A stretch of 38,887 nt of DNA, from contig PLYR01000093.1 in the NCBI GenBank assembly GCA_003153435.1, forward strand, positions 1-38,887, given 5' to 3'. The notes beneath the pieces are model-generated. The model had not been told where the DNA came from, made no database searches, and saw only the letters and a list, made by a program, of their open reading frames with translations. The translations under genes and the position numbers were made by a program. Shown here piece after piece: positions 35,612 through 38,887 of the stretch (position 1 is its first letter; the number at the start of each line of letters is the position of its first letter). The DNA comes from Bacteroidota bacterium (lineage in GTDB: Bacteria; Bacteroidota; Bacteroidia; Palsa-965).

Positions 35612-37276
35612 CTATCTGGACACAATCAGTTTGGTCCTTTGAATAGCCCCATTATTAACCAGGGTAACAAAATAGATTCCGTTTGGCTGACTGCTCAGAT
35701 CGAGTTGAAAAGTTGAAGTATTAAACGTTTCCGGTGATTTGATTTCCCGTCCAGTAACATCACATACGGTCATCTGGGTATGGTAATCACTCCCTGCAGA
35801 AGCTTTGAACTGCAGAGAAAAAACCCCCTGACTTGGGTTCGGTGTAAAGGAAATCTGGAGTGGTGTTTCTGTCTCCTCCTTTATGCCTGTTGCAGTTCCA
35901 AGTTTTGCGATAAAGAAATCCTGAGTTCCTGCATTAGTCAGCGTATTACCTCCGATTGGGCAGGAAGCGCTTGTATAGAAGCCGGTAATAAAAGCTTCTC
36001 CATGCCAGTTCACTCCGATTGCAGCTCCTTCATCATCGCCTGTGCCTCCTACACTTTTGGCCCATACAATAGCTCCGGCAGGGTCATACTTTGCAACAAA
36101 AATATTATTGGTGCCGAGGTTGGTGATACTCGAGCTTCCAAAGTTCATAGTAGAGCTTCCGTAATATCCAGTTATATAACTGCTTCCGTCAGCATCCACA
36201 CCAATACTCTGTCCGATGTCATTTTGTGTTCCTCCTGCGGTTTGTGCCCACTGCGCTACTCCGAGCGTATCGTATTTCACGATAAACGCATCATCGTAAG
36301 ACACCAGATGGGTGGTAACGGATCCGCCAAAATGCATCACACTGCTGTTATAAGAACCGACAACATGAGGGCTTCCAAGGGGGTCGAGGCATATGCCGTT
36401 GCCTGATTCGTTCGATACCCCTGTAGGGTTATTCGCCCATTTCACATTTCCGGAAGCATCATATTTTACGATAAACATATCAAGGCCTCCGGAATTTGTA
36501 AGGGATGTGGAGTTAAAAGTACAGGTAGAGCTGGTGAAGAATCCGGTTACATAAGCATTTCCTTTTGCATCGACAGCTATTCCATTTCCCTGATCGGAGC
36601 TAGACCCTCCACCGCTTTTTGCCCAAAGCAGGGCGCCGGAGGGGCTATATTTAGCTACAAATATGTTATAATTCGAACCCAGATTTGTAAGTGAAGTCCC
36701 GCTAAAGGAAATCGTTGGACTTGCATAATACCCGGTAATGTATACATTGCCGCTTCCGTCCACCGAAACACCACTTCCGATATCATTCCCACTGCCACCG
36801 GCGTTTTTTGCCCAGAGCACGTTTCCGGAGGCGTCATATTTTACCAGGAACACATCATCATATCCATACCCGGTAAGTGCGGTAGTCCCGAAAGTTAGGG
36901 AGTGACTATTGGAAGACCCGACCACATAAACATTACCGTTTCCATCTACGGTCACATTGTTTCCGGCATCATTGGAAATCCCGGTAGCCGTTTGTGCCCA
37001 GACCACGGTTCCGGAAGGATCATATTTGGTTAAATAATAATCAAGACCGTTTGCGCTACTGCTATTGGTAAGTGCATGTGTTCCAAAACTGATGGTGCTG
37101 CTATTGTAGCTGCCAGTTACAAAACTGTTTCCGGCAGCATCGGCGCAAACACTAGACCCTCTGTCATCTGCAGGTCCTCCTGCATTTTTTGCCCATGGCC
37201 AGGAAGGAGCCTGAGCATTCATACTAAGGCTAAACATGGTGGCCGCAAGAATAGAAGAAGTAAGGATTTTTTTCAT
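35612..37276 (-). CDS. SBBP (beta-propeller) repeat protein with T9SS type A sorting domain
   Basis: A 554-residue exported protein. Signal peptide at residues 1-22. Residues ~25-465 hold seven repeats of ~62 residues of the SBBP type, each with 'WAKNAGGSGNDIGSGVSVD'-like, 'GNVYITGYY.S.T..FG' and 'IFVAKYDPSG' strands. Seven such units can close a seven-bladed beta-propeller. Residues ~472-554 are a type A T9SS sorting domain ('FTPNPSQGVFSLQF', 'VCDVTGREI', 'SQPNGIYFVTL', ending 'KLIVSR'). The gene lies 141 bp downstream of the LytTR regulator gene, and that gap carries a pair of direct repeats. It is followed by a terminator, so it is probably its own transcript. The function is probably binding or adhesion at the surface. 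Confidence 0.9.
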   Translation of the reverse strand: MKKILTSSILAATMFSLSMNAQAPSWPWAKNAGGPADDRGSSVCADAAGNSFVTGSYNSSTISFGTHALTNSSSANGLDYYLTKYDPSGTVVWAQTATGISNDAGNNVTVDGNGNVYVVGSSNSHSLTFGTTALTGYGYDDVFLVKYDASGNVLWAKNAGGSGNDIGSGVSVDGSGNVYITGYYASPTISFSGTSLTNLGSNYNIFVAKYSPSGALLWAKSGGGSSSDQGNGIAVDAKGNAYVTGFFTSSTCTFNSTSLTNSGGLDMFIVKYDASGNVKWANNPTGVSNESGNGICLDPLGSPHVVGSYNSSVMHFGGSVTTHLVSYDDAFIVKYDTLGVAQWAQTAGGTQNDIGQSIGVDADGSSYITGYYGSSTMNFGSSSITNLGTNNIFVAKYDPAGAIVWAKSVGGTGDDEGAAIGVNWHGEAFITGFYTSASCPIGGNTLTNAGTQDFFIAKLGTATGIKEETETPLQISFTPNPSQGVFSLQFKASAGSDYHTQMTVCDVTGREIKSPETFNTSTFQLDLSSQPNGIYFVTLVNNGAIQRTKLIVSR

Positions 37277-37348
37277 AGGAATAGGAGTTGGGGTGTGATT
37301 GGATTTGATGAAGCTAAACTAATCAAAATTTGACCACATGAAATTGCA

Positions 37349-37379
37349 ATTGAGGGAACCCTGCTCCGGATTGAGGGAA
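37349..37379. promoter_or_regulatory. candidate operator: two perfect 10-bp direct repeats, 21-bp period
   Basis: ATTGAGGGAA occurs at 37349-37358 and again at 37370-37379, on the same strand, 21 bp start to start, or two helical turns. LytTR-type regulators typically bind paired direct repeats with this kind of period. The pair lies 73-103 bp before the ATG of the SBBP protein and just past the end of the LytTR regulator gene. Confidence 0.45.
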
Positions 37380-37417
37380 ACGCTGCTTCGTGGCGATAAA
37401 ACACACCAAACCAACGT

Positions 37418-38164
37418 TTATTCTCCGGACGCCAGGATTTCAAGCAGCGCTTGTCGCTTTTCTCTGGAAACAGGAACTTTGGTCCCATCAGACATAACCA
37501 GATATCCTCCGTCCATCTTGACATACTTTTCGACATGTCGGAGATTCACAATACAGGTTCGGAACACTCTGCAGAAAACAGAGGGGTTCAGCATATTTTC
37601 GTATTCCTTTAGTGTTTTGGTACTGGTGTATTTTTTCCCATCCTGCAAGATGATATGGGTATAGTTGGAATCTGACTCCAGACGGTTAATGAGGTCGGAA
37701 TCGACATATACAATTTCATTCATGCTTGCTATTGCAATTTTATTTCCTCCTTGCATGCCCGCCAACCGTTCGAGTAGTTTTCCGATATCGTTCACGGGTG
37801 ATTTCGTTTCAGACAATACATTTACCTTTCCAACGGCTTCAATCAGTTCGCTGATGATGATCGGTTTGAGGAGATAATCCACTGCATTGTGGCGGAATGC
37901 TTTCACAGCATAGTTGTTATGCGCTGTGGTAAAGATTACCTGAAAGGGCAGGTCTTTTACTTTTTCGAGGAGCTGAAATCCACTCATCCCTGGCATCTGG
38001 ATATCCAGAAATACGAGATCAGGCTGCAACTTTCGGATCTGCTCTACCGCTTTGACTGGATTTGTTTCGCTTCCGATTACGGTGACGTTTTTACAATTTT
38101 GTGCCAGCAGGGAGGAGAGTGCTTCTACTCCATCTATCTCATCATCTATAAGGAATGCTTTCAT
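37418..38164 (-). CDS. LytTR family response regulator
   Basis: A 248-residue two-domain response regulator. The receiver domain (~1-120) has Asp7/Asp8, the phospho-acceptor Asp54 in 'VFLDIQMPGMSG', Thr80 and Lys100 in 'YLLKP'. After a linker, residues ~140-246 are a LytTR DNA-binding domain ('RLESDSNYTHIILQDGKKY', 'FCRVFRTCIVNLRHVEKY', 'KVPVSREKRQ'). It follows the LytS-type kinase gene by 16 bp, forming a standard kinase-regulator pair. Likely targets include the adjacent SBBP surface-protein gene, on the basis of the direct repeats between them; this is inference. Confidence 0.94.
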   Translation of the reverse strand: MKAFLIDDEIDGVEALSSLLAQNCKNVTVIGSETNPVKAVEQIRKLQPDLVFLDIQMPGMSGFQLLEKVKDLPFQVIFTTAHNNYAVKAFRHNAVDYLLKPIIISELIEAVGKVNVLSETKSPVNDIGKLLERLAGMQGGNKIAIASMNEIVYVDSDLINRLESDSNYTHIILQDGKKYTSTKTLKEYENMLNPSVFCRVFRTCIVNLRHVEKYVKMDGGYLVMSDGTKVPVSREKRQALLEILASGE

Positions 38165-38180
38165 AATTTCTAATTAAATT

Positions 38181-38887
38181 TTACTGATGGACCTTTGCGA
38201 TAATCAATGGAAGCAGAAGTGTAACAAGGGTACCGCAAGGTTTACCGTTTGTATCCACTTTATCTTCTATGGTTAAGTTTGCAACACTGTTGTTAAAGGT
38301 GTTCAGGGCTTTGATCCTTTCTTCCGTAAGAGAAAGCCCCATCGATTTGTGTGTTGCCTCTGTGTGTTTTTTCATCCATAAAGACGCCTTTCTGCCCACT
38401 CCATTATCTTCAATCACACATTCCAGCATTTCATTCCTTTTCCTGATCCTGATTTCAATAACACCACTTGCATCCTGTAGAGGCCATAGACCATGAAGAA
38501 TCGCATTCTCAACAAAAGGTTGCAGCAACAGAGGTGGAATAAGAACTTCATAAACAGGAAGTGCCGGTTCAACTTCAATTCTACATGTAAATCTTCCATG
38601 CGCTCTCATCTGTTCCAGTTCAATGTAAAGTTGGAGTGTTTCTATTTCCTGCACCAAAGGTATGTTTTCTGATTTTGAATTTTCAAGGACACTCCGAATC
38701 AGTCGGGCAAACTTAGCGAGGTAATCCTGAGCAGTTCGGCTGTCATTTTTCAGGATATGATTCTGGATACTGTTAATAGCGTTAAAGATAAAATGAGGAT
38801 TCATTTGTGCGCGGATTGCCTTCATCTCCAATCCTGCGATCTGAAGACTGAGCGCTGATTTCCGTTCATCTTTTCTCCGGATGGATC
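38181..38887 (-). CDS. LytS-type sensor histidine kinase (5' partial)
   Basis: The C-terminal part of a histidine kinase, open to the right edge of the window, so the sensor part is missing. A TTG at 38831 is in frame but coding continues upstream of it ('KSALSLQIAGLEMKAIRAQM'), so it is not the start. The visible 235 or so residues have the LytS-type phospho-acceptor motif 'QMNPHFIFNAINSIQNHIL', an N-box-like 'LLLQPFVENAILHGL' and the ATP-binding 'EDNGVGRKAS' and 'MGLSLTEERI'. The coiled segment before the His box is typical. It should phosphorylate the LytTR regulator 16 bp downstream. Confidence 0.92.
   Translation of the reverse strand, partial: SIRRKDERKSALSLQIAGLEMKAIRAQMNPHFIFNAINSIQNHILKNDSRTAQDYLAKFARLIRSVLENSKSENIPLVQEIETLQLYIELEQMRAHGRFTCRIEVEPALPVYEVLIPPLLLQPFVENAILHGLWPLQDASGVIEIRIRKRNEMLECVIEDNGVGRKASLWMKKHTEATHKSMGLSLTEERIKALNTFNNSVANLTIEDKVDTNGKPCGTLVTLLLPLIIAKVHQ

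Follow-up and report, generated by a model that had tools for sequence, protein, structure and literature searches.

Described LytTR operators and the locus under study

LytTR-domain regulators bind sites made of 9–11-nt repeats with 11–13-nt spacers, which are without a common consensus (PMC4847170). The YpdB operator at the yhjX promoter of E. coli, reading GGCATTTCAT-N11-GGCATTTCAT, consists of 10-bp direct repeats with a period of 21 (PMC4847170), and S. aureus AgrA, another LytTR regulator, acts at agr P2/P3 through a pair of direct repeats close ahead of the promoter, with the centre of the proximal repeat near −60 (PMC4227749). Our literature searches found no account of a LytTR operator from Bacteroidota. 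Here, we report a candidate operator near the end of a 38,887-nucleotide stretch of Bacteroidota DNA, referred to as the window.

Comparison with YpdB shows identical repeat geometry, a LytTR regulator paired with a LytS-type kinase, and a site placed ahead of a separate target gene. The two systems differ in their half-sites (GGCATTTCAT for YpdB, TTCCCTCAAT here), in the promoter, which here is of the TAnnTTTG type and served by another sigma factor, and in the sensor, which here is a beta-propeller kinase. As with AgrA, a LytTR regulator is combined with two direct repeats immediately ahead of a promoter; however, the proximal repeat is centred at ~−45 rather than near −60, and the sequence does not fit. 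Assignment as an AgrA-type site was rejected because the half-site consensus is not matched on inspection, in agreement with the initial annotation. The site is a predicted LytTR operator of an already known kind.

The window ends within a minus-strand operon in which a LytS-type histidine kinase gene and a LytTR response regulator gene are followed, after a 141-bp gap (37277–37417, of the length given in the initial annotation), by an SBBP gene. Only the C-terminal part of the kinase (PF06580, 38181–38885, minus strand) lies inside; beyond the window the gene encodes a Reg_prop beta-propeller sensor part and runs to ~C140:40971. Just past the window end at 38887 there is an assembly gap (a run of unknown bases), which splits the kinase gene into two ORFs. 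The regulator (37418–38164, minus strand), the presumed binder of the repeats that its gene adjoins, contains PF00072 and PF04397 domains, the latter at 65.7 bits against a cut-off of 22.6, and carries the motif FCRVFRT in its LytTR DNA-binding domain. Its best NCBIfam model is PRK11697 (E. coli BtsR/YehT) at 132.9 bits, far under the equivalog cut-off of 246, which rules it out as a BtsR equivalog. The half-site of BtsR (YehT) may resemble the present one, with a CTCA-like core repeated at a period of 21. The putative target (35612–37276, minus strand) is an SBBP beta-propeller protein with a signal peptide and a T9SS type A sorting domain.

A unique direct-repeat pair ahead of the SBBP gene

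The perfect direct repeats described in the initial annotation are present exactly as claimed, reading ATTGAGGGAA-N11-ATTGAGGGAA on the plus strand at 37349–37379, with copies at 37349–37358 and 37370–37379 and a period of exactly 21. Read toward the SBBP gene, on the minus strand from 37379 to 37349, the sequence is TTCCCTCAAT-CCGGAGCAGGG-TTCCCTCAAT, that is, two identical 10-bp units arranged head to tail with exactly two helical turns between them, in keeping with the repeat and spacer lengths of LytTR-type operators. The pair is located 73 bp ahead of the SBBP start codon. It occurs once in the 4.02-Mb genome, and even with up to three mismatches it has a single occurrence in the window, against a mean of 0.02 in dinucleotide shuffles. 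Single half-sites are found 15 times elsewhere in the genome, mostly inside ORFs. Genome-wide, pairs with 2–3 mismatches are near chance (12 versus 9 in the control), and in relatives their number is raised, partly through minisatellites.

A −7-like box, TAGTTTAG, lies on the minus strand at 37314–37321, 27 nt after the proximal half-site, with one mismatch to the Bacteroidota −7 box TAnnTTTG, as had been proposed. With this box placed at −12 to −5 (PMC9723704), transcription would start near 37309 with a 5′ UTR of ~33 nt, and the proximal (37349–37358, minus strand) and distal (37370–37379, minus strand) half-sites would lie at about −40 to −49 and −61 to −70, respectively. This placement at a constant distance ahead of a putative promoter (27 nt before the box here, 26–30 nt at many other LytTR-type sites) supports the suggested reading as an operator at an activator position. 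We found no clear −33 element at the SBBP promoter.

The half-site recurs at the kinase promoter and in a same-genus relative

A third copy of ATTGAGGGAA is found at C140:41039–41048, 68 bp ahead of the start of the kinase gene and in the same orientation as in the SBBP gap; the probability that this gap contains an exact copy on that strand by chance is ~2e-4. The kinase promoter reads GCAGTTCCCTCAAT, 27 nt, then TATATT, and its upstream half-site is degenerate (4/10). The composite pattern TTCCCTCAA-N26-30-TAnnTT has two matches in 4.02 Mb, the SBBP and histidine kinase (HK) promoters, both flanking the operon. A control pattern had six matches in the genome; two matches are thus nothing unusual in number, and the weight lies on where they fall. 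The concern that such a pair or pattern might occur at random sites is not borne out: the pair is unique, and half-site plus −7 box occur together only on either side of the operon.

The exact pair is absent from 19 relatives, and no intergenic DNA similarity to the repeat gap was found in relatives; conservation was therefore sought with degenerate composite patterns. Only mismatch-free matches were given weight, and weaker ones were kept only if intergenic and promoter-placed, as matches with up to three mismatches are near chance overall. Without mismatch, GCAGTTCMCTCAA-N28-TAnnTT matches only the HK promoter and the promoter of an SBBP homologue in the relative G002 across four same-genus genomes, with ~0.003 matches expected by chance on our own estimate. 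Among same-genus SBBP homologues, this G002 protein is the closest, at 53% over its N-terminal half. Ahead of its gene, GCAGTTCAC/GCAGTTCCCTCAA recur at a 21-bp period, with TAGTTT following after 27 nt; the two units can also be read as GCAGTTCACC and GCAGTTCCCTCAAA, again 21 bp apart. The upstream half-site is partial there, and the proximal one appears as TTCCCTCAAA. The composite site is present ahead of this closest homologue, which bears on the conservation check set in the initial annotation, and recurs at the operon's own HK promoter; most SBBP homologues (paralogues) are without it.

The closest LytTR orthologue (57%) is also encoded in G002, at a contig end, where adjacency of regulator and target is not confirmable and the available 73 bp of downstream gap contain no repeat. 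Among the variants of the FhRhHRS motif listed for 98 matched proteins, only the window and G002 regulators have F instead of H, a substitution in the DNA-contact motif that is a possible basis of the private half-site. A period-22 repeat (TCATCCCC) at an SBBP homologue in G003 was not counted, as it lies 15–45 bp before the ATG and downstream of a TAnnTTTG box.

Repeats of period 21 are enriched beside LytTR genes

We sampled 200 distinct LytTR genes, mostly from Bacteroidota, considering only gaps that adjoin the gene or its operon and removing satellites. In these gaps (52 kb), period 21 accounts for 14 perfect repeats of 9 bp or more, period 20 for 4 and period 22 for none; the Markov null for period 21 has a mean of 0.54 and a maximum of 5 in 300 runs. 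Unrelated gaps from the same loci contain 5 at period 21 in 76 kb (1.45 times as much DNA) and show no comparable peak. A held-out set of 40 loci, drawn once the first result was known, gave 9 repeats of 8 bp or longer in such gaps, and 6 of them have a period of exactly 21. The proposed link between 21-bp repeats and LytTR regulators is thus upheld by enrichment of the exact period, replicated in fresh loci.

The half-sites differ between loci (TTGGTATACT, CGGATATTCA, CCTGATAATC, CTTACTAAA and others). An exact TAnnTTTG box follows the pair at 28 or 30 nt in L005, L032, L034, L301 and L305, and at 38–40 nt in L336 and L325; where found, exact boxes are oriented like the LytTR operon itself. 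Among these loci, L005 (G000:C123) is a paralogue within the genome studied here, and in it the LytTR stop codon, TTGGTATACT-N11-TTGGTATACT, 28 nt, TATATTTG and the next gene follow one another in the same order as in the window. Some targets adjoining such repeats, including a C10-family peptidase, carry T9SS sorting domains.

Across ~415 kb of sampled stretches of the genome itself, period 21 was the only one of the periods 18–24 represented among perfect intergenic repeats of 10 bp or more. Some of these repeats are minisatellite, and a crude survey of the LytTR-free reduced genome G036 also gave some period-21 repeats; period 21 alone is therefore not specific to LytTR.

Proposed mechanism and alternative explanations

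We consider it probable (about 0.85) that the repeats are the operator of the adjacent LytTR regulator (37418–38164), which would activate the SBBP gene for a T9SS cargo and autoregulate its own operon. The adjacent regulator as binder is strongly suggested by the sequence data, and we infer from the same data its binding to the repeats, the activation and the start site. In the proposed mechanism, the periplasmic beta-propeller kinase would phosphorylate the regulator, and two LytTR domains would bind the half-sites head to tail on one DNA face between about −40 and −70, alongside sigma-A RNA polymerase; the bound regulator would then activate transcription of the gene for the T9SS-secreted SBBP protein, while the half-site upstream of the kinase gene would mediate autoregulation of the HK–LytTR operon. 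Period enrichment, box spacing, the kinase-promoter copy and the G002 site all support this operator reading, which the initial annotation had put forward.

The same site could instead serve a LytTR paralogue from another locus of the genome, which has 15 LytTR domains; several regulators appear to share similar sites, as half-sites of the TYACTCA type with the same geometry precede other exported-protein genes in G000 (this genome), G001 and G003. Yet the sole two composite matches in the genome flank the window's own HK–LytTR operon, and the site co-occurs with an orthologous regulator in G002, making a paralogue an improbable binder. A chance origin, or a neutral local tandem duplication of ~20 bp with no regulatory role, is more improbable still. 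The partial similarity noted after each copy is present, refined here to 8/10 identity with a 1-base offset (CCCTGCTCCG/CGCTGCTTCG; p ~0.009, with random window segments as comparison); as this similarity extends into the spacer with one indel, the pair may have arisen through a local 20-bp tandem duplication, and 21-bp minisatellites exist in the genome and genus. However, duplication leaves unexplained why a further copy stands at the HK promoter, again spaced by 27 nt, as well as the conservation in G002 and the class-wide enrichment, and as the origin of the second half-site it is compatible with function.

Least credible appears a role of the repeats at the RNA level, where they would form a terminator or a structured leader in the LytTR transcript, or their binding by another regulator family. 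A stem (ACGTTG...CAGCGT) is predicted between the LytTR stop codon and the distal repeat, but the fold z-score is only −1.64, an Rfam scan gave no match and there is no terminator-like site on the minus strand; moreover, the repeats are mostly unpaired in the fold and lie upstream of the putative start.

Beyond the operator reading of this single site, we lean towards a broader one, in which the Bacteroidota LytTR promoter grammar would be fixed (10-bp half-site, N11, half-site, 26–30 nt, TAnnTT) and the half-sites regulator-specific, so that operators and regulons could be read de novo, with a recurring module of propeller kinase, LytTR regulator, operator and T9SS cargo or other exported protein. 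Bacteroidota encode many LytTR regulators (15 domains here, up to 46 homologous matches listed per relative), and a fixed spacing rule would predict operators, autoregulation and secreted-protein targets from sequence, making the regulators testable and providing single T9SS cargo genes with a direct transcriptional input.

Related sites and further observations

In line with the check proposed in the initial annotation, related sites lie ahead of several exported-protein genes. Candidate members that share the spacing encode two secreted proteins, one in G002 C55 (TTCCCTCAAT-N11-TTCAATCAAA, 27 nt, TACTTTAG) and one in G000 C10 (42 bp between half-sites, TACTTTAG), and a lipoprotein, in G000 C102 (TTCACTCAAT-N11-TCCACTCAAT, 26 nt, TATATTTG); the lipoprotein site may be that of a paralogue that uses TYACTCA half-sites. 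The TYACTCA-type period-21 pairs of G000, G001 and G003 have TAnnTT 26–27 nt downstream (including L421, L397 and L420) and probably mark the regulon of another, paralogous member of the LytTR family.

The −7 boxes at the HK promoter (C140:41004–41011), L421 and L397 read TAnnTTGY, which is the SM5 box of Flavobacterium psychrophilum, possibly of an alternative sigma factor (PMC9723704), and several TTCCCTCAA sites carry TAnnTTAG; these variants may be systematic. In marine Flavobacteriaceae, period-20 repeats with differing half-sites lie 5′ of LytTR operons (L086, L092, L094, L116 and L137), between the operon and a divergent ~800-aa gene in several genera, with the spacing kept while the sequence drifts. 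Minisatellites of 21-bp period occur within the genus at G000:C39:68771–69090, G001:C5:51641–51732 and G002:C239:39491–39582, the latter two containing TTCCCT/TTCACTCA-like units.

Finally, L378:1501–2182 (G002:C235) contains tandem small ORFs of 68 and 70 aa (MNIFGK..LSSIIGGG.., double-glycine-leader-like) that match no Pfam or NCBIfam model. Each has a half-site (GCAGTTCACTCAAA or GCATTTCACTCAAA) ~86 nt before its ATG, and by these features they look like LytTR-controlled GG-leader peptides.
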